Source: Aurantiochytrium sp. KH105
Taxonomy: Eukaryota; Sar; Bigyra; Thraustochytrida; Thraustochytriidae
Length of the DNA: 64,000 bases
NCBI GenBank assembly: GCA_003116975.1
Contig: BGKB01000109.1
Location: forward strand, 186,001 to 250,000
Direction of reading: 5' to 3'
Every line of letters begins with the position of its first letter. Positions within the stretch are counted from its first letter, which is position 1. The translations under genes and the position numbers were made by a program. The notes beneath the pieces are model-generated. The model did no database searches and was not told the DNA's origin. It saw nothing but the letters and a program-made list of their open reading frames with translations. Shown piece after piece: positions 8,197-61,301 of this stretch.

Positions 8197-10048
8197 TCAA
8201 CATTCATCCATGTCAAAGGGCAACTGCCCAATGAGATGGGTCCAGTCCGAGTCTGTGAGGGACGTGACAAGGTTTGTGAGCTGCGTTTCCGCGTTACTCA
8301 TTTCAGCATCAGACGTGTCTCCATCCTCGTATTCCCAGACGCCGGGCTCCGCATAGCGATAGATTTCGACAGCGGTGATCTTGCTCGTATCTGGAGTGGG
8401 ATCGCTAGACCCCTCATTGAGCGGCATGTAAACAATCAAGCGGTAGCATTTCGAGCGGATTGAGTAACCCATGCATACCCAGTTGCTATTGGTTTTCCCC
8501 GTGCAAGCCTTTCGTACGCTCGAGGTAGTCTTTTGGTTCTCATATTCCGAGAGCGCAGCCGCGCGCGGACAAGCGTTGGTGTCCTCGAAAAGACCTGTCA
8601 AGCTTGTGCCACCAAGAACAACAGGGTCTGTTGAGCCTGACTGCGTAGCCCTGTCGAGTCCAATCATGTCGAGAACCGTCGGGTAAAAGTCGACGGTATC
8701 AAGAGGGCAGGTGGAATATGAACCGATACCGTTGCGCCGTGCCGAATCGAGAGAAAGCCAATTTTCGGGCGGGACAATGCCCGCCGGAACGCGCGTGGCA
8801 TGCTCGTAGACTGTTTTCTTTCCGAACAGGCCGCGATCTCCAAGGTGAAAGCCGTGGTCGCCCCACATGATGATCAAGGTATTCTGGCGGACCTCTTCAT
8901 CGATTTCGTCAAAAGCCTTCATGAGCTCGCCAATCTGCTCGTCAATGAAGCGAGTGCCGGCGTAATAGCCTCGCACGCGATCACTGTCGTCGAGATCGTC
9001 TTGGTTGCCATACTTGCTAAGCTCCTGATTGTCGCGCGCACTGTACTCTTTGTCGGAGAACCAGGTGGTGCCATCCTGCACAAGAGGATCAGGATTGAGC
9101 AGGCTGTCAGGAACGGTGCGGTAGGCGCCAAAGTCTTCGTTGCGCGCAACCCACGGCATGTGAGGCTGAACAAAGCCCACGCCGAGGAACCACGGCTGAC
9201 TGGCGTTTGAGGCCAGCTCTTGGAGTTTTTCAATACCAAGCTTGCGCACACAGTAATCGAGATGACGATCTTGGTACGCTGAGTCGAACGAGTACTCGAG
9301 AGCGTAGTTTTTGTCGTTCTCCAGCGATTCGTCGCCGTTTTCGCCCGCGGTCGGCCAACGCAGCACTGTTTTCCCGCACAGTTCAGCCGAGGTCCGCATC
9401 TCTTTCGGCGGATAGTACTCGTCCCATGAGCAGAACTTGTCATCTTCATCTTCGCAGATGTCAGGTTTGTTAATGGTTGTCGTGTCATCCTCGTCGGTGG
9501 AGCTGAAACTCCGCGTGTCGAGAATCTTGCCCACGCCCACGGTTCTGTACTTGGACTCTGAGTTCCGCAACCACCCTGGCATTGTATGCAGGTTGGCATT
9601 CTTCTCGCGGAATGTGCCTTCGAATCCCCAGGCTCTGATCGGGTCGTTTCGCTTGCCCGTGATCATACTGTGTACGTACATGCATTTTGGTTCGTTCATC
9701 AATTCATTCAGTGTGAGACCAGCTCGCGTTCGTCAGTTTCGAGTTTCCCTTTTTGGTTTATCGCTTGCTTTCGTGCGTCGTCTTGACTTACCTGATGCGC
9801 GAGGGCGCGCACTCGGCCTTGGCCGCCTGGATATTTTCGTAGCGAATGCCTCGGTCCAAGAGCGCGTCCATGTTTGGCGTCTCGGCTACCTGCGAGCCGT
9901 ACGCGCCGAGCACAGGCTGCAGGTCATCGATCGCGATGAAGAGCACATTGTACGGCCGCTCCACCGAGGGCGCCGCCGTGGCCACGAGCGCCGTCGCCAG
10001 CGCCACGAGCGTCTGCAGCGTCCTCCTGGTCGCAGGCGAGGCCCTCAT
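8197..10048 (-). CDS. Sulfatase 1, iduronate-2-sulfatase-like, two exons
   Basis: Secreted or lysosomal sulfate-ester hydrolase of about 575 residues. Exon 1 is 10048-9792 and exon 2 is 9667-8197. The 124-bp intron has donor GTAAGT and acceptor ACAG. The protein starts with a hydrophobic signal peptide (LVALATALVATAAP), then YNVLFIAIDDLQPVLGAYG with the metal-binding Asp pair. The CAPSR formylglycine motif has Cys at about residue 80. The motif continues across the intron as ISMITGKR, which fixes the splice junction. Later HMPW, GDHGFHLGDRGLFGKKT and FYPTVLDMIGL are typical of the iduronate-2-sulfatase branch. The frame also reaches a GTG further upstream, but the ATG at 10048 places the signal peptide at the start. 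Substrate is unknown; sulfated polysaccharide is likely. It is adjacent to a second, related copy. Confidence 0.92.
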
Positions 10049-11534: not shown

Positions 11535-13190
11535 TCAGGCGTCAAAGGGAGCAACACCGAGGAGGTGCGTCCAGTCCGGGTCCGACGGGTCGCCAATAAG
11601 CGCGAGCATCTCGGCCTTGACGTCAGCATAGTTGTCATCGTCGATGCGATTGATCGTCTCAAAGGCACCGGGCTCGCCATAGTGGTACAACTCCATCTTC
11701 TTGGCAGTGCTGTAGTCAAACACGCCTTTGTTTGAAAGCTTCATGTACACAATGAGGCGGTACGACTGCGTGCGAATCGAGTAGCCCATAAAGTTGGAGT
11801 TTTCGTACGAAACGTACTCGCTAAGCGCGGCAGCGCGCACTTGCGCGGACGAGTTCTTCATAATTGGCACGAGACTGGTGCCCGAAAAGGTCTGGTCGGA
11901 CGGCGGGTCGACGCCCAGAATATCGAGCACTGTCGGATACAAGTCAACACTGTCTGTGGGCGAGTCTGAATGCGCACCGACCTGGACCTCGTTGCCTGAG
12001 ATCGCAGTCCATGCAGGAGGGGCCACAATGCCACACGGCACGCGCGCCGAGTTCTCCAAGTTTGTCTTTTTGCCCCAAAGCCCAAAGTCGCCCAGATGAT
12101 AGCCATTGTCACCCCAGAGAATGATCATGGTGTTGTTGCGCACGGTTTCGTCGATTTCGTTATCGAGCGTTGAGATGAGCGCGCCAATTTGTCGGTCGAC
12201 AAAGGCCGTGCTGGCATAGTAGGCACGGACCAGGTCCGAGGCATCGTAGGTGTCCCAGCCTTCGTATTTCTCCAACTCTGCGTTCGAAGACGGTTTCGTC
12301 CACGACGAAGATTGCTCAGTCCAAAAAATGTTGTCGTCCAAGTCCATCTGGATCTCTGGCGGTGGGAGAATTGTGCTGTCCGGATCCGTGCGAAAGGACT
12401 CAAAGTCAGCGCGTGGGCCAGTCCACGGCAAGTGCGGCTTCACAAAGCCAACTGCGAGGAAGAAGGGCTGCTCTGTGGCGTTGGCGGCAAGCTCGACGAG
12501 CTTTTCGCGGCCAATGAGGCCGATGCAGTAATCCTCATGGCGCGTGACATTGTCAATCTCGAGAATGATGGCCTCGAACTGATCGTATTGGTCCCAATCT
12601 TCGTAATCGTCTGCTGCCCAGCGCAGGGCCGTCTTGCCATTGCACAGGGGCTCTTGACGCATTTGTTTTGGGGTAATGTACTCGTCCCAGCTGCAATGGA
12701 CATTGTCCGCGTTCTCCCACGTGTCTTGCCCGCACAAATCAGGGGCAAGTTCTCCGTCGGTGTTAAAGTTTCGATTGTCCAGAATCTTGCCTACGCCTAC
12801 TGCGCGGTGGTTTGTCTCTTGACGCAAGTGCCCCGGAAGCGTCATGAGCTCGGGCGAAACTTTGCGAAAGGTCGGCTGAAATGCCCATGTCTGCGTTGCG
12901 TCTGCGTGTCTGCCCGAGATGAGAGACGCGCGACTTGGTCCACAGATTGCCATCGAGCAGCTCATGGACTGGAACACGGTTCCTCGGCTGAGCAGATCGT
13001 CCATATACGGTGTTTTCGCCTCCTCGTCGCCAAAGGCGCCCAGCGTCGGTTTGAGGTCGTCAATCACGATGAAGAGCACATTGTACGTTGCCTGCGCGCA
13101 CGTCGCCAGCTCTGCCAGTGCCACCGCGGCGAGTGCCGCCGTCGCGCGCACAGTCCACCTCCGTCGCGGCGCATTGGCACGGGTCGCCAT
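11535..13190 (-). CDS. Sulfatase 2, iduronate-2-sulfatase-like
   Basis: Single-exon sulfatase of 551 residues with an ATG start and a hydrophobic N-terminus (about residues 12-33) expected to be a signal peptide. The Asp pair lies in YNVLFIVIDDLKPTLGAFG (residues 44-45). The formylglycine Cys is residue 83 in ICGPSRASLISGR. PHLPW, WGDNGYHLGDFGLWGKKT and DLYPTVLDILGVDP follow. It ends in THLLGVAPFDA, which resembles the THLIGQLPFD ending of sulfatase 1 and the TSLHGLIPFDA ending of sulfatase 3. The three genes are therefore paralogues. It lacks the intron of sulfatase 1. It is a tandem neighbour on the same strand, consistent with duplication. Activation requires a formylglycine-generating enzyme, not in this window. 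Confidence 0.93.
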   Translation of the reverse strand: MATRANAPRRRWTVRATAALAAVALAELATCAQATYNVLFIVIDDLKPTLGAFGDEEAKTPYMDDLLSRGTVFQSMSCSMAICGPSRASLISGRHADATQTWAFQPTFRKVSPELMTLPGHLRQETNHRAVGVGKILDNRNFNTDGELAPDLCGQDTWENADNVHCSWDEYITPKQMRQEPLCNGKTALRWAADDYEDWDQYDQFEAIILEIDNVTRHEDYCIGLIGREKLVELAANATEQPFFLAVGFVKPHLPWTGPRADFESFRTDPDSTILPPPEIQMDLDDNIFWTEQSSSWTKPSSNAELEKYEGWDTYDASDLVRAYYASTAFVDRQIGALISTLDNEIDETVRNNTMIILWGDNGYHLGDFGLWGKKTNLENSARVPCGIVAPPAWTAISGNEVQVGAHSDSPTDSVDLYPTVLDILGVDPPSDQTFSGTSLVPIMKNSSAQVRAAALSEYVSYENSNFMGYSIRTQSYRLIVYMKLSNKGVFDYSTAKKMELYHYGEPGAFETINRIDDDNYADVKAEMLALIGDPSDPDWTHLLGVAPFDA

Positions 13191-18866: not shown

Positions 18867-20498
18867 ATGATGCGCGGTCTCTACTTTCTTGCGCTCTTGA
18901 TGCTCGCGCTGGGCGGACAATCTGCGCAGGCAGCGAAACCCAATGTCCTCTTTTTCGTGGTGGACGACCTCAATACTGGCGTTGGGGCCTTTGGTGACGA
19001 CCTTGCAGACACGCCGCACATTGACGGGTTGGTTGGCAACGGAACAACCTTTACAAACGCGCATGTGATCAAGTCAGAATGCAGCCCTTCGCGTGCAACA
19101 ATGTTCACCGGCCGACTCCCCGACATGAATCGCGTTTGGGACTTTGAGCCGCGATTACGGCACTTCAACCCAACACTCATGACCCTTCCTGGTCTTTTCA
19201 GAGAGCAAGGCTACCGCACCGTTGCCTTTGGCAAGGTCTTCGACTCTCGAAGCTTCAAGAAAAACGAGAAACTCGACCTTTGCGAAAGCAGCAACAGCAC
19301 AATCTGCTCATGGGACAAGATTGCGAGTCTCGAAGACATGGAGAAAGATGCTAGAAACGTATGCGGGATCAAAAAGCTCAAGTACTCCTGGTCCAAAAAG
19401 CAAAAGAAGAAGAACCGTGGCAAGTTGGCAATTGTCGTCCCCGACAAGAAAGCCAAGTACACTTCCGATCATTGCTCAGCTACAGCAGCAGGTCAAGAAC
19501 TACGCGAGCTCGCCGTTTCAGGAACGCCTTTCTTCCTTGCCGTCGGCTTTAGCCTTCCTCACATGCCATGGGTGTATCCGCGAAGCTACGCAAGCATGCT
19601 CAACGATATTTCCGATGAAGAACTCGTGAACCGCGTTGCGGGCGACACCAATTCTTCCTTTTTCGAGGAACAGACCAACACCATGTCGAACTCTGGGAGC
19701 TATGAGATCACCAGGTACTCTGATCATGAGAGTGTCTCAACGGCGGACCGTATCCGTCATTATTACCGCAGCGTCTCATACATGGACGATCAGCTCGGAC
19801 GGGTACTTGACGTGCTTGACGAGACTGGGCTCGAAGACGTCAAGGCCAATACCCTCATCGTTTTTGCGTCAGACAATGGATTTCATCTGGGAGATCATGG
19901 CATTTGGGGCAAAAAAACTCTCTATGACCGAGCTACGCGCGTTCCGTTGGCAATCGTGCCTCCGCCAACCCTTCTGGAGACACAACCTGCACTTCGCAAC
20001 GGTTTGGGAGCAGAGATCCCCTTTCCTGTACAAATTGACGATGTCTTTCCAACGGTGCTCGAGCTCTGCGGTATTGAGAACGACGATACAGACCACGATC
20101 GTTCGGGTGTCAGTCTCGTGCCATCGATGCAAAACACAACAAAAGCGGTGCGTGGTGCTGCCGTTTCGCAGTTCTGGGCGCACGCTGGTGAAGGCATGAA
20201 TCGAAAGATTATGGGGTACTCGCTTCGCACCGTGCATACGCGCTACACGCGTTACATGGCATTCTCCAAGAACATTCGCTCTACAGCAATCACGCCAACA
20301 CTGTATGATCCGAGTCAAGGAGAGGGTGTGCCCGAATTCTTTGACTACGCGATTGACGGAAGCAGAGAGCTTGCAAATCGGGCGAACGAGTCAGCATTCG
20401 AGCGGTCTGTCGAGCTCTTGCAAGGCGAAATTATGGCCAATGGGGATCGAGGATGGACCTCTCTCCACGGTTTAATTCCCTTTGACGCGCGCTCATAA
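18867..20498 (+). CDS. Sulfatase 3, iduronate-2-sulfatase-like
   Basis: Single-exon 543-residue sulfatase starting at a double ATG. It has a clear signal peptide (GLYFLALLMLALGGQSAQA). The metal Asp pair lies in PNVLFFVVDDLNTGVGAFG (residues 33-34). The formylglycine motif ECSPSRATMFTGR has Cys at 72. LPHMPWVYPR, ASDNGFHLGDHGIWGKKTLY and DVFPTVLELCGI follow. A Lys-rich insert near residues 165-200 (KKQKKKNRGK...) is absent from the other two copies. It is on the opposite strand from sulfatases 1 and 2. The HxxDHGxWGKKT block and the ending TSLHGLIPFDA group it with them. Likely a secreted or vacuolar hydrolase of sulfated glycans. Confidence 0.93.
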   Translation: MMRGLYFLALLMLALGGQSAQAAKPNVLFFVVDDLNTGVGAFGDDLADTPHIDGLVGNGTTFTNAHVIKSECSPSRATMFTGRLPDMNRVWDFEPRLRHFNPTLMTLPGLFREQGYRTVAFGKVFDSRSFKKNEKLDLCESSNSTICSWDKIASLEDMEKDARNVCGIKKLKYSWSKKQKKKNRGKLAIVVPDKKAKYTSDHCSATAAGQELRELAVSGTPFFLAVGFSLPHMPWVYPRSYASMLNDISDEELVNRVAGDTNSSFFEEQTNTMSNSGSYEITRYSDHESVSTADRIRHYYRSVSYMDDQLGRVLDVLDETGLEDVKANTLIVFASDNGFHLGDHGIWGKKTLYDRATRVPLAIVPPPTLLETQPALRNGLGAEIPFPVQIDDVFPTVLELCGIENDDTDHDRSGVSLVPSMQNTTKAVRGAAVSQFWAHAGEGMNRKIMGYSLRTVHTRYTRYMAFSKNIRSTAITPTLYDPSQGEGVPEFFDYAIDGSRELANRANESAFERSVELLQGEIMANGDRGWTSLHGLIPFDARS

Positions 20499-54996: not shown

Positions 54997-56545
54997 GGTT
55001 GCAGCGCACGAGGTTGCAGGCCTTTCGTGTTTGCAAGTTGTGTTGCTTTGGGCAGCATTTCCAGCGTGCACGTGCTTCTCTTTCTTACTTCACCCAGAAA
55101 ATCTATATATTCAAGTCTGGTAAGCGCAAATCGTACTACTATGATACCTCTCACATGGTCGGATAGTGCACCCGGTTACAAGACTAGTTGGCGGAAAGGG
55201 AGGCGCGCGGAGAAGTCAGGAGCGCACGCAGTGGCCGAGAGTCGCGCGCAATGTACAGCAATGGAGAGAACGATGGTCCAAAGGTGTGGCTCTAGCATTG
55301 TGCGCACCTGAAATGGGGAGGACGGACGTTGGAACCAACTGATTTGACGTCTCGAACATCAAGCACAAAGCGATCCGCAACCTGTCATTGGTGTTAATCT
55401 GCAAAACTAGACCTTCGTCAGTCGTCGTCATCATGATCTCCCCGCAAACGTGACTTTTTTTTTTTCCGCAGGAGGCACCAAGTGCTCGCGCGCACGTCTA
55501 GATTCTATGTGTCACCGTTTTGCAGTATGACGGCAAGCTCGACCGGTACAGTGCGCGCGTGCTGCTCGAAGCCATCTTGGTCGAGAAATGCAATAGTGTT
55601 GCGCATGCTGATGCGTATACTCCATACAACTTATAACTAAGAATGTAAGGCCAGAGCCTCCGAAAGAAGGTCTTCGTTTTGTCGTGGCGCTCACGCCGGG
55701 CGTAGAAGATATGGTGTGCTTCCGGCGAAGCAGCAAGGTAGAGGTGGCCTCGTGAAGAAAAGTTACTTACAGCACCTTTTCTCTCTCTAGTTTTGAGGGA
55801 TTCAAGAACTGTAGAAGACGTTGCTTCAGAGACGTAAAATGCTTCAGCTTGGCCCGAAATTTGCGACGGCTTGGTCTGATATGTAGGGTTTGCACAAGTA
55901 TACATTAACTTGCCTCCTGGTGTCAGGGTGATAGCAACCTCATCATGACGGAACGAGGTAATTGAGCTGATGCTGTCCTTGGCATAGAAATGTCTACGTC
56001 ACTCTCGAGAGAAATTCAAAGACTATATCCTTCAACGCACCAGTTGTGCGTGCATTGTCGTTGGCACAGAAATGCCCAACGCGAGTGTTTCATTGACATC
56101 TGACTAGGTTCTGCTCATGCTGTTTTCTAGTCTTGTTGCTTTTGTGAGCTGCTGCAATCGGCTGCAGACAAGCCCTTCGGGACTCTTGACCTTAGATTTC
56201 TAGAAGAGTTGCTTGAACGCAGCGCAAATCTAATAATCGCCTTTGAATGTTGTTTCAACAACTTATCCCGACTTTCGTTTATCAATGCGTCAATCGTAAA
56301 TGCCCGGAATAGAGCACAACGAAGCAGCCAGCTCGAGTCTTGAGAGGAGCAAAAACGAAAAAAAGCACATGTAAGGGTGAGGAAGGAATCTTGACAGCTT
56401 TCGCAGTGTTCCGTTGATCCGTTGTTCCGTTTTGGCAGTGAATCAACCTCTCAACGCTCGATCAAAGTATCATGAACAACCGTTACTATCTATCTCTATA
56501 ATCAATATTTTACAAGCCGAAACTAGCATAACTTTACCAGAAGAG
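54997..56545. other. A/T-rich intergenic region, right flank of the transposon
   Basis: No supported gene. It contains hairpin sequences at 55910-55998 and 56060-56080. It is also the expected downstream side of the Fanzor gene, where a guide RNA and transposon end would be located. Confidence 0.55.
55910..56080. repeat. Hairpin sequences, one shared with 41.3 kb
   Basis: CCTCCTGGTGTCAGGGTGAT (55910 on) matches 41288 on. It is followed by TTGGCATAGAAATG (about 55978) and by GTTGGCACAGAAATGCCCAAC (56060-56080), a near-perfect hairpin. These last two are related to each other. Confidence 0.5.
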
Positions 56546-57812
56546 TCACTTCGTGCACGAGATGGATTTGATGTAAATATTGCGAGCACCGTTGATGTCT
56601 CTGTCAACAGAGAGACCACAACGATCACAGTTATATCGTGTATTCCCACCAAGATTGCGTTTCACGTATCCGCATCTTGTGCAGGTTTTTGAAGTGTTAC
56701 TCTTCAGGAACGGCCAACGTGTTTCTTACATGTCCGTGGTTTTGAATGAGTCTGTCGTGAAAGCGGCAGTGAGAAAGCATTTGCATCTTGCGTTTCGCAG
56801 TTAGATGGAGCTTGTGTGATTCGAGGATACGCTTGACACCCAATTTACCAACCCGGATTTCTTGAAAGTTGTCCAGAAGAAAGCGAATGATTCTGTCGTG
56901 TGCGTCTTTGAGTTTGTTCTTCATTTTTGCCCGAAGCATTTGCTCTTTGCGCTTGTAGGTCTTCTTTCTATGAATGCGACTTCCAGTCTCTTCATCCCCA
57001 TCCCGGGAGCTTCTGATCTGGTCAATACGCTTTGCCAAGTCGAGCATATTGTAAGACTTGAATTTTCCACGTTTCTCAGAACCAGTCGTACGTGGCAAGA
57101 CGTTGAGTGTTGCGCATAGTTTTGCATCGTTCGAATAGAGTGTTTGAAAGTCACGAGCGCCTGGATCGAGAGTCGCGTCTTTGAAAGGTGCTGGTTTGAG
57201 CTTTTCTCGCTTTTTCTGATATGGAATGATCAGGTACCAACGACCAGGCTCTTCGTAAACGATTTTGCAGTCCTTTTTAATCTTGGGAAGCTTTCGATTT
57301 CGCTTTTTCGAACCTTGACGTTTGTATCGCAGTGGTCCAAATGGTTTAGCTTTGTCGTCAGCATCCAACCTCCACCTATATCGTTTCATGAGGAAGATGA
57401 AGTTGTCGTCAAATGCATTGTTCTTGGCGAACATACACTTTTGAACTGGAATAACACCAAAACCTCGCTTGTCGCGCCTTGACTGAAAGCGCATTTCGAA
57501 CTTTTTCACAGTTCCAGCCTTTTTGTTCGAAAAAGCGGATTTGTAAGCTGCTCCTAGACGACGTAGAGTGTCACCACGCATATGGTATGGAAGACTCTCA
57601 ATCTCGTCATCGAGCTTTCGTTTCTTCTCGACTACACGATTTAACGCTTTACGGGTTGGTCCAAGAAAGTACTTTTTCATCTCCGCAAAATGAGTGCCTA
57701 CATTTCCTTTCTTGATATGCTCAAGAGCCAGGTTCCACAATGCACGTAGTGCGTGGTGAATTTTGGTAAAAATCTGTCTTTGACGAAGTTTTGGTCGCAG
57801 CTTAACTTTCAT
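56546..57812 (-). pseudogene. Fanzor (TnpB-like RNA-guided nuclease), interrupted
   Basis: From MKVKLRPKLRQRQ (ATG at 57812) an open frame of 371 codons runs to 56697. It has the TnpB N-terminal basic region, the ALWNLALEHIKKG start of the family and the RuvC-I Asp in LDPGARDFQTLYS (about residue 216). A basic bridge region (KKTYKRKEQMLRAKMKN) and LGVKRILESHKLHLTAKRKMQML follow. It stops at VPEE-TAA. One extra base at 56696-56699 appears to have turned a Tyr codon into this stop. The other frame continues TSKTCTRCGY, a second CxxC (NCDRCG) and RuvC-III DRDINGARNIY, ending at a TGA at 56546. The zinc finger and last catalytic Asp are thus cut off. The expected RuvC-II Glu would be the one in VPEE, as in IS607-linked forms. 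Confidence 0.88.
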
Positions 57813-58421
57813 CGATCTTATGTCGCTTTCTTCCTCCTCGGCTGCTTCGTTGACCGTGGAGACGACACCCAAAGACAGTGATGATTGAGACGAGGTCTTT
57901 GACGATTTCATCTTGCGGTCCTCCATCGTCATCTTGTCCATTTGGATGGACAACTCGAATTGAGGCTCCTTTGGAAGTGACAATCCACTCGAGCAAGTCG
58001 AATGCGAATCGACAGAGACGGTCTCTATAGGTAACCACGACTTCTTCGAGTTCTCCTTGCATTGCGAGTTCCAGAATGGAACGAAGACCGCGCCTTTTGA
58101 AGTTGATGCCAGACCCAATGTCTCGGATGACTTAGTGTTTGGGGAAGTTTTCTTCGAACCAAGCGACTTTTGTCTGGAGAGGTCGTCTTTCTGCGCTTTG
58201 CTACTGACTCTTGCATAACACAGTCGACGTCGCTCAACTTCCGTTTGCCTAGGAATGTCCGAGTTAATGTCAAAGTCCTCGATACATACTCGTCGGTGTC
58301 CGCCTTTTGTCCTGTAACTTCTGACTTTGTTGTCGATAGCGTAGTTTCGTATTCTATCTCTGTGCAGTCCGAGCCGCAAAGCGGCGACTCCAACGGAGAC
58401 GTAGTGTCGCTCGTCTGACAT
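57802..58421 (-). pseudogene. tnpA: IS607 tnpA (serine recombinase), frameshifted
   Basis: The start at 58421 encodes a MerR-type helix-turn-helix (VGVAALRLGLHRDRIRNYA..., with KGGHRR). The first catalytic block, YARVSSKAQKDDLSRQK, contains the nucleophilic Ser. The frame is then lost by one missing base near 58168-58171. In the shifted frame the sequence continues VAWFEENFPKH, hits a TAA at 58132-58134 where a residue is expected, and goes on VIRDIGSGINFKRRGL, then ELEEVVVTYRDRLCRF. It ends near 57802 with VHPNGQDDDGGPQDEIVKD and ITVFGCRLHGQRS. These blocks match IS607 TnpA along its length. Two lesions make an active recombinase unlikely unless another copy supplies it. Confidence 0.9.
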
Positions 58422-61301
58422 CGAGCGACACCACCAACCCGAGTTTCGGTTGTGCTGGAAACGATCCTACAATCTTCTAATAATTTGTTGTAACTGCTTG
58501 TCCCCGGCAAGTTGCTGATTGTTGACGGTAGAATCAGTGCGGATCTCGCTCTCCAGCGCGCCAAAACCCGCAGAGGGACAGGCAGGTCCCCGCCGCGTCC
58601 CAAATCTGATGCACGAGGTGGCCTGACAAGCCTTGGCCTCTAGCCGATGAGGTTCCGCCGGTACGTAACCTCATCCGTCGTCAGGTTTTGACCTGACCGG
58701 CCCTCACGCGTGGTGGGGGAGGCGAATAGAATTTCTTGCTCGAGTGCTTGCTTGCTTGCTTGCTCTCTCGCTCTCTGGCTCGACCTCGGTGGCGCATCTT
58801 TGCCCTCCTGCCACCCATGGTGCGTGGGGCGGCGCGCACGGCCGCGGCAGGCTCGGACATGCCGACGGTGCCATTCACGGCGCCTTGTTGGTTGGTCGAG
58901 AGAGAAAGGCGGAAGATGCGGTCCCAGCCAACGGGAAGAAAGGAAGAGCGCGCGCGGTACGGGCCGGCCGCGGCCACCTGAGTGGGCTGTCCGCTTTAAC
59001 ACCGTGACGTTGAGCGAGACGAATGAACGGGTGGCTGTGGCTTGGGCCAGGTAGCTTGCTATGCTAGCCAGCCACCATGGCCAGCTAGCTGTGCATCTTG
59101 CCCAACCTCGCCAGCGCCTTGCGTTACGTTGGAATGTGTCCCATGCAGCGGTGCGGCGCAGTGCGGTGTAGGCCGGTCTGTGCCGTGAGAAGACGAATAT
59201 CACAAGAGAGAGGAAAACACAGGTTTCAGCCGCCCGATCTCGACCACGAAAGACTCGCGCTTGACCGCGGTTCTTGCCTTTTGTTGCCTTCAACTTGCCT
59301 TCATTGTCTGTCAAGTTTGTCTTGGCGACCACGAGGACCCCGTCGCTAGGGTTGGTCGGATGCTTGGCTGGCTGTGGCCGGCAGCAACTGCGAAGCTCGA
59401 CTCGAGACCGATGGCGGCCCCGCCTGCGGCTTTACCCGGGCGGACATCCGGCTCGTCGCGGCCTTCTTCGCCTCCCCGCCGCAGCCGATCTCCAAAGCTG
59501 CCGCGGGTTGGCGCATTCTGTTGCAGTTGCGTGCAGCACGGCCACGCGAGCCCTGCGTTCCTCCCTCCCTCGGGGCACCGGCGGCAGCGGCAGCGGCACG
59601 GATGGGGGGCGAAGATACGGCCGGTGAGCAACCCGGCACGCCACGCGAGCCCAGCTTGTTTTTTGACGGTAGAAGAGCGAAGACGGCGGAGGAAAAGCGA
59701 CCGGCGGGGGAAGTCCACCTTAACGCCAAGGTCACGACGAAACGCGCCGAGAGTGCGAGTTAAGGCGATAGGAAAACACAGCCCGCAGGCACTGGCCACA
59801 GGAAAAACAGCCGCACTGGCTTCGCTTGCATTGCTTTGCATTGCTTGGCTTCGCATGGTCTTGCCATCGCTTGCTTGCGTACATTGCTCTTCTTGCATGG
59901 TCTGTATCGCTTTGCATTGCTTGCTTGCATGATCAGCTTTGCATGCATTCGTTTCGCGAGGCCGCCGCAGGTGCTGTATACGTACGTCCTTGGATGAGTG
60001 CGGCAGCGGCTGTCGGTCGCGGAGGGTCGGTCAGTCGGCAGGCCGTACGCTGGCGGCAGCGGAAGCGGAGGCGGGAGAAGGTGGAGGTTTCGTTTCGTCT
60101 CCCTCCGCAGGTATGTGCAGTTAGTTGTTGGCGGATGAGACTTATTAGGAGGAGACGAAGCGAAGATTGGAGATTCCGCCACGTTCTCTGACTCGACTTG
60201 ACTCGACTTGACTAGCGGGTGCGTACGGGAGGGAGGGAAGGAGGAAACGAGGCGGCCCAGCGCGTTTCCCGCCCGCCCGCCGCCAGTGCCTGCCGGTCGA
60301 TACGCCGCGGCAGCGTCGGAGATGCGCCACCGCAACTTCAACGGGCGGCGATTCCAAGGCAACCAACGGCTGGAGGCTCTGCGGAGGCGCGCGTCCTCCC
60401 TCGCTGGGCCCGGGCCCGCCTCGCGGGCGCCGAGGCCGAGGCGAGCGCCGCGAGGAGCAACGAGAAGAAAGGTTTTCACAGAGGCGCGCGGGCTTGGACT
60501 CGCGCAGGTTTGCAAAACCCGGCCGGCCAGAAGAGGAGGAGGAAAACACAGCCGCGGCGGAGCAAAACACAGCGCGTCCCAGGAAGGCGATTTGAATCGC
60601 AATTCGAATCGCGATTCGAATCGAGAAGAAAGGCGATTTGAATCGGAAAGGCGCGCGGGGCTGCGCGGCAGACACGCAACGCAACGCAAGGCAACGCAAG
60701 GCGCGGCGCGGCACGGCAAGGCGACGCAAGGCGAGGCGAGCGAGGAGCGCGCGGCGTGGACGGGGAGGAGGACGCCGAGGAGAAGGAGCTGGGGCGCGAA
60801 GACCGGGAGTGTTTCGCGTCGAGACGCGAGAAAGGCGAGGAGGTTTCTTTGTGTCCTCTCTCTGCTGCTGTTTGATTGGCTTTTTTAGCTTCTTTCTTTC
60901 TTCTCTCACGCGCGCACTCGCGCGCTCGCTCGGGTGCGGTTGTCGCCGGCCGAGCTCAGCTTGCCCGGCAGGGAGGAGTCAAGAACCGTCTCGCCAAGCG
61001 CACCGGCCGGCGGGAGCTCCACGTCCGCCGACAAAGAAGCAGGAAAGAGCAGAGCAGAGCAGAGCGTGATCGCCGGGACCGCGCGCAGAACTCGCGGCGA
61101 GAGAGCCGAAAGGCAGCTTCGACGAATACTGGCTAGCTCCTAGCTAGCCGTAGCTCGTTGGAGACAGGCGGGGAAAAGGTGAGCGGAAGAGGACCCGGAG
61201 CCAAGTGGGCAGTGGGACGCAAGAGGCAAGAAGCAAAAGCGCAAAGCGCCAGCGAAAGCGAAAGCGGACCAGCGAGGCGGAAAGGAGACCTAGCAAGGAG
61301 G
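58422..61301. other. Long intergenic region, no gene seen
   Basis: The left flank of the transposon, then GC-rich DNA up to the RCC1 gene. Overlapping frames on both strands are composition effects. It holds CTTG repeats near 58.74 kb and degenerate TTGCATTGC repeats near 59.83-59.95 kb. Confidence 0.55.
58741..58763. repeat. (CTTG)n microsatellite
   Basis: Five CTTG-type units. Confidence 0.8.

Follow-up and report, generated by a model that had tools for sequence, protein, structure and literature searches.

The window, the whole 64,000-nucleotide stretch of Aurantiochytrium DNA that we analyzed, carries on its minus strand an IS607-type element with two damaged genes, a tnpA for a serine recombinase and a gene for a Fanzor2 nuclease (Table 1). 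The element is wider than the 56546 to 58421 assigned to it in the first-pass annotation. Its right end, AGTAACGG at 56480, is sharp, with unrelated flank beyond it, and ~100 bp just inside the left end are absent relative to L012, an intact sister copy elsewhere in the genome. The GC content of positions 56001 to 58000 (0.448) is the lowest of 32 two-kilobase bins in the window. Three other long ORFs of the window (8197 to 9702, 11535 to 13190, and 18867 to 20498) resemble sulfatase-type paralogues by eye.

Table 1. Features of the IS607-Fanzor2 element in the window (positions in the window)
Feature	Position	Strand	Basis
Whole IS607-type element, family A copy	56480..58499	minus	similarity to sister copies drops sharply at both ends; flanks unrelated
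tnpA, IS607-type serine recombinase, broken	57802..58421	minus	homologous to L012 tnpA (NF033518, PF00239, PF00376); coordinates by alignment
Net 2-base insertion in tnpA relative to L012	~58170..58171	minus	comparison with sister copies
In-frame TAA, distal tnpA	58132..58134	minus	
Fanzor2 core (TnpB-like, RuvC DPG motif, zinc finger)	56546..57812	minus	domains scored on intact sister L012
One extra base 5' of zinc finger, breaks Fanzor frame	56697	minus	common to L028 and L029
tnpA stretch also open in Fanzor frame, proposed dual-coded N-terminal extension	57813..58169	minus	
Extension motif PFWNSQCKENSKKSWLPIET, Fanzor frame, opposite TnpA resolvase domain	58020..58079	minus	translation of 56697-58421 and family-wide conservation

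The element and its copies in the host genome

The two genes lie on one strand and overlap by 11 bp, as first described, from the Fanzor core ATG at 57812 to the end of the tnpA stop at 57802. Calling this overlap bacterial in style understated it, however: the Fanzor frame continues without a stop through most of tnpA. The stop codon seen in tnpA is there, but the accompanying "one-base deletion" is a net 2-base insertion relative to L012, frame-equivalent to such a deletion and present in no other copy among the 17 aligned. The insertion joins the N-terminal 84 tnpA codons to the Fanzor frame, giving a fused TnpA-Fanzor ORF of 574 amino acids by mutation; a fused gene specific to the window was rejected on this ground. 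In L012, L023, and L028, the tnpA ATG is followed 7 nt later by a second ATG; the window copy has ACG there, and some other relatives also have no ATG at this point. The base added ahead of the zinc finger is likewise present but is older than the window insertion. It was inherited within a subfamily that comprises, at the least, the window copy, L028, and L029, and its presence in three copies led us to reject a sequencing error. L028 carries this base and still has an open tnpA frame, so elements may have been mobile even when they lacked a usable zinc finger. The claim of a decayed insertion holds, but "fairly recent" would fit the youngest copies (98 to 100% identical to L012 in aligned pieces) and not the window copy (94.6%). 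Judged by these comparisons, the feature in the window is a eukaryotic IS607-Fanzor2 element in a decayed copy.

The 1,876 bases of window DNA match 23 other stretches of the host genome (76 Mb, 367 contigs, eukaryotic) at 89 to 95% identity. When merged, they make up family A, with 18 places, the window included, and two fragments of 75 and 63 bases. Two further IS607-Fanzor2 families are present, B (L009 and L010) and C (L020, L021, L022, and the gapped L032). The family assignment made from the letters alone is borne out by domain scores: the L012 tnpA product (205 amino acids) scored 173.3 bits against NF033518 transpos_IS607 (cutoff, 110), with MerR (PF00376) and Resolvase (PF00239) domains, and its Fanzor scored 110.2 bits against NF040570 guided_TnpB (cutoff, 100), with PF07282. 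Family C TnpA scored 124.4 bits against NF033518. The sister copies with both frames open that had been anticipated were recovered by the genome search, namely, L012 in family A and L020, L021, and L022 in family C, the latter three being 98.3 to 99.4% identical. Contamination, which had been raised as a possible objection, is unlikely, as copies occur on many large contigs and the neighbors of the element in the window include a homologue of COP9 subunit 2. The matches to a COP9 subunit that carry an organism name come from stramenopiles and other algae, at 46 to 52%, and the remaining ones reach 79%.

Counting the window copy, 17 family A copies were examined for their right end, and 14 of them have AGTAACGG. 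Flanks of family A insertions are unrelated, no target-site duplication was noticed, the left edge is fuzzy, and no empty site was found among the copies examined. The element resembles the IS607 family as described in the text available of a 2018 eLife paper (PMC6188088) in its MerR-type helix-turn-helix plus resolvase domain and its two ORFs in one direction, and perhaps also in a right end finishing in GG and in the lack of a noticeable target-site duplication. Some flank sequence is common to pairs of copies (L013 and L027 on the left, L027 and L029 on the right), as would result from segmental duplication or from an exchange between elements. Assembly gaps (N runs or one N) inside the Fanzor genes of L015, L016, L017, L019, and L032 mimic internal deletions; the first four had been candidates for MITE-like nonautonomous copies with missing middles and were rejected as such, their gaps being N runs or a single N. 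No Rfam match for a guide RNA was found in L012, L010, L021, L133, or L033, and a subthreshold match to NPPA-AS1_1 was taken as chance.

In an alignment of 56 sequences, D416, E570, and D605 of the L012 nuclease, together with the zinc-finger cysteines, are invariant; its DPG motif reads LDPGARDF. The window family belongs to the same clade as the pro-Fanzors, the cyanobacterial IS607 TnpBs with DPG and a repositioned glutamate (Yoon et al. 2023, PMC10711439, main text); it has the DPG and a glutamate that precedes the first cysteine of the zinc finger by seven residues. A tree with bacterial TnpBs, as the first-pass annotation had proposed, set the DPG/DCG loci in one group apart from other IS607 TnpBs (node support, 0.57; the mis-trimmed P0085 was ignored). 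This tree places family A apart from families B/C, which makes the earlier suggestion of horizontal transfer plausible, but deep supports are weak. Two side observations come from the wider set of loci. L116 and L121 have TnpAs that are 99% identical and TnpBs that are 86% identical, which suggests that related cyanobacterial elements have recombined between their two halves. L114 lies on a 4.1-kb contig titled as a Parachlamydia MAG, and its clade element groups with viral L037 (support, 1.0), possibly through transfer or mis-binning.

A second open frame across tnpA

In the host families, the Fanzor frame is +1 relative to tnpA. From stop to stop, it runs for 674, 671, and 679 codons in L011, L012, and L023, spanning all of tnpA, for up to 618 codons in family B, and for 644 to 647 codons in family C. 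We gathered loci with a complete tnpA and nuclease from the host, viral contigs, genome contigs, and IS607 matches in bacterial genomes, with 73 distinct loci left after filtering on completeness, N, and exact duplicates. They were sorted by the DPG motif in the nuclease core, a criterion independent of the extension, into 45 DPG loci and 28 others, and stops were counted against a null model of synonymous codon shuffling, which keeps both amino acids and codon usage. The nuclease was in frame +1 in all 45 DPG loci, whose tnpA genes contained 23 +1 stops versus 173.6 expected and 589 +2 stops versus 589.7 expected (the loci are related, and the counts are not independent). The 28 other IS607 loci had 345 +1 stops versus 363.0 expected and 455 +2 stops versus 468.8 expected. 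The median open stretch before the core was 594 nt in DPG loci and 30 nt in the others. A long open stretch was also seen in three of the 28 (L036, L048, and L051), which were moved into the clade for later tests despite lacking DPG; the tree then placed them there. One control, L294, is an exception with 393 nt open, but in frame +2. When loci were thinned at 70% TnpA identity, 23 clade loci, including three DPG-lacking relatives, had 16 +1 stops versus 92.4 expected, and 17 controls had 238 versus 242.6.

Elements sharing one genome differ in the same way. In G001, loci L133, L201, L206, and L220 had 0, 0, 1, and 0 +1 stops (~5.5 expected each), compared with 15 (17.8 expected) in L195, an IS607 element outside the DPG group. 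In G002, L124 and L211 had none, and L221 had 15 (15.1 expected). Among all 80 DPG/DCG nucleases with a tnpA match (not de-duplicated), the open stretch before the core was 100 codons or longer in 76, and one or more pieces of the loose extension motif described below were present in 77; most of the exceptional loci (four with fewer than 100 open codons and three without any motif piece) have damaged tnpA or nuclease ORFs. The long overlap is common to host, cyanobacterial, and viral relatives.

The depletion is concentrated in the distal part of the gene. Among 26 clade loci at <80% identity, +1 stops numbered 13 versus 17.1 expected in the first 20% of tnpA, 4 versus 15.9 in the second 20%, and 1 versus 73.5 in the last 60%; the last 60% of 25 controls had 234 versus 246.9. 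Of 24 loci, 14 had an in-frame ATG no more than 5 codons past the frame opening, compared with 2.6 expected by density, and 20 had one no more than 13 codons past it, compared with 5.6 expected; read by eye, this excess is partly owed to the Tyr-Val start region of TnpA.

A scan of viral sequence with the single L012 protein gave no matches, and viral loci were afterwards gathered by alignment search. A later viral scan with nuclease-core patterns gave 28 complete loci, and the 16 that were new at <90% TnpA identity formed the hold-out. All 16 had DPG and the nuclease in +1. Their tnpA genes had 0 +1 stops versus 64.4 expected in the last 60% and an excess, 29 versus 15.4, in the first 20%; by eye, the [FY]W and SW[FY] pieces of the motif were present in all 16 extensions.

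Conservation of the +1 peptide

The +1 peptide of the clade loci ends in a motif, PFWN..C.E.S..LWLP.TD and then SWF, that is conserved far beyond what TnpA dictates. Column signal peaks opposite TnpA columns 100 to 125 and 140 to 149 (z = 19.1, 21.9, and 22.6 in three peak windows, versus 7.6, 8.3, and 13.9 for +2), where the +1 frame reads P[YF]WN..C.EIS..LWLPTKTD and NSWFS and where TnpA is poorly conserved. The z value of the best +1 window was 16.7 for a set of 11 host and viral loci, 20.1 for 14 bacterial loci, and 4.7 for 21 controls. For pairs at <50% identity, the mean z over the shuffle null was 2.5 to 2.6 for +1 peptides and 1.6 to 1.7 for +2 peptides; in a six-locus outgroup, the +1 mean was 0.7 to 1.0. 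The overall peptide z values, 30.8 for +1 and 14.7 for +2, both exceed the null. Since +2 is also above the null, part of the peptide signal reflects shared codon ancestry, and the z values are inflated. Conservation of at least 90% at W126 and P128 of the extension in set A2 was discounted, as most of its rows had been picked for bearing the motif.

Synonymous change gives a separate measure. In 19 clade pairs, synonymous codon differences were 0.400 in the first 40% of tnpA, 0.244 (408/1674) in the last 60%, and 0.446 (2262/5075) in the TnpB core, so that change in the dual-frame part of tnpA is nearly halved. Five control pairs gave 0.429, 0.406 (197/485), and 0.405 (491/1212), respectively. 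Host families B and C, compared through two pairs that are near duplicates, differed at 27/76 in distal tnpA versus 154/271 in the core (P = 0.001). The family A pair L012/L028 showed no slowing (6/111 versus 14/326). By these sequence tests, the second frame is stop-free beyond chance and constrained in its amino acids, two of the marks of dual-coding overlapping genes.

The motif also occurs in proteins. Among the 120 homologues listed of 1,012, the PFW...W.P pattern was found in 43 and a shorter pattern in 12 more. Three metagenomic proteins (P0001, P0003, and P0005) and a Yasminevirus protein (P0015) have long N termini with the same motif. In the cluster P0027, of 17 member sequences, a MerR domain of the TnpA type is directly followed, in one fused protein, by the +1 extension and a Fanzor2 core. 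Other occurrences are apart from tnpA. L311, on the contig of L047, is a DPG nuclease ORF with ...KSPYWTDKIEQISKQLFIPNGD...STNSWFTV..., with no TnpA match nearby and with numerous stops in the tnpA register. In P0083, P0241 to P0243, and P0119, known as protein only, PFWN/PFWD..W.P is present, and the linker is too short or too different for a +1 reading of tnpA. A short W.P...NSWF form is seen in P0007, P0021, P0031, P0032, P0045, P0098, and P0099, again from protein; the short-N-terminus group (A4, with P0007 and others) was judged on protein sequence alone, and a scan for its relatives found none.

A dual-coding reading of distal tnpA

We consider it very probable that, in the Fanzor2/pro-Fanzor clade, distal tnpA is a dual-coding region in which frame 0 would encode the serine recombinase TnpA and frame +1 an N-terminal region of the nuclease, running stop-free into the TnpB/Fanzor core. 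The extension would start at a variable in-frame site in the first 5 to 40% of tnpA, would always span approximately the last 60%, and would end in the conserved motif. Translation of the +1 frame may begin at the nearby in-frame ATG, in the eukaryote possibly via leaky scanning. Because the motif persists where tnpA is absent, the extension presumably serves the nuclease itself rather than contact with TnpA; it may act in handling of the guide RNA or DNA, in binding of a partner, or in localization.

It is possible that translation instead starts at the tnpA ATG and shifts to +1 inside tnpA, so that a programmed frameshift would yield a fusion of the TnpA DNA-binding domain, the extension, and Fanzor. 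In many loci, the +1 frame remains open up to the start of tnpA or close to it, and fused arrangements do occur in P0027, where MerR is followed by the +1 extension, and, by mutation, in the window copy. We regard a frameshift as unlikely, though, given that the first 20% of tnpA shows little or no depletion of stops, that an in-frame ATG comes so soon after the opening in most loci, and that no common slip site was noticed on inspection. It is still less likely that the open frame is an untranslated by-product of TnpA amino acids or codon usage. Loci taken singly are only mildly unusual (0 versus 3.5 stops in L012, P = 0.005; 2 versus 3.6 in L021), and depletion in single family B and C loci is not significant, as a by-product would predict. 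Yet the null that keeps amino acids and codon usage expects more than seven times the +1 stops seen in the DPG loci, the +2 frame and the control IS607 elements, same-genome controls included, fit that null, and the hold-out, the synonymous rates, and the presence of the motif without tnpA all speak against this explanation. A further alternative, in which the window copy would be no more than an inactive IS607-Fanzor2 element of the usual kind, fits every feature of this copy taken alone, and such elements are described in the available text of PMC3627910 and PMC10711439; we nevertheless find this the least credible account, for it leaves the family-wide dual-frame signal unexplained.

With regard to how the proposed dual-coded extension arose, overprinting of the +1 region on tnpA is more likely than the reverse, since TnpA is general to IS607 and the +1 region is confined to the Fanzor2/pro-Fanzor clade, a grouping that the tree backs weakly (0.57). 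On balance we lean toward a history in which the N-terminal region of Fanzor2 and its bacterial relatives was overprinted on the transposase gene, was kept by the need of the nuclease, moved among bacteria, viruses, and eukaryotes, and was freed in some lineages on loss of tnpA.

IS607-Fanzor2 elements of eukaryotes and viruses have been described before (PMC3627910 and PMC10711439, in the text available), and IS607 ORFs are said to "often overlap" in the corresponding text of PMC6188088. That text describes no long dual-coded overlap, whereas the Fanzor2/pro-Fanzor clade has a putative one over most of tnpA; our control IS607 loci are without it. The eukaryotic Fanzor2 of Bao and Jurka (2013, PMC3627910) is alike in combining, within one element, a DPG nuclease, a zinc finger, and an IS607-like serine recombinase and in its occurrence in eukaryotes and giant viruses, but the accessible portion of that paper calls the N-terminal halves highly variable, whereas here an N-terminal region is conserved and would be read from the +1 frame of tnpA. 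The main text of PMC10711439 does not contain the terms "overlap," "N-termin," "open reading frame," or "start codon," and our searches of the open-access literature, including the available text of PMC6188088 and PMC11061315, turned up no description of dual coding over a long tnpA/tnpB stretch. The closest solved structure by sequence is the Mimivirus TnpB-like L79 (PDB 9b0l), with 94.4 bits over the C-terminal half; L79 residues 57 to 90, a motif remnant by eye, scored 0.8 bits, which is not significant, and were dismissed. Thus, IS607-Fanzor elements in eukaryotes are known, and the family-wide dual-frame region appears to be new.

Research on Fanzor2 and pro-Fanzor nucleases treats them as ancestors of eukaryotic RNA-guided enzymes and as potential editing tools. 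If the dual-coding reading is right, clones starting at the apparent core ATG miss a conserved region of the nuclease. The overlap may also be a reason why tnpA and the nuclease stay together, as most distal tnpA mutations alter both. If the overprinting history holds, a domain of the Fanzors would come from the second frame of another gene, which would be a clear and testable case of a protein segment that arose in an alternative frame of a transposase and afterwards occurs apart from it.
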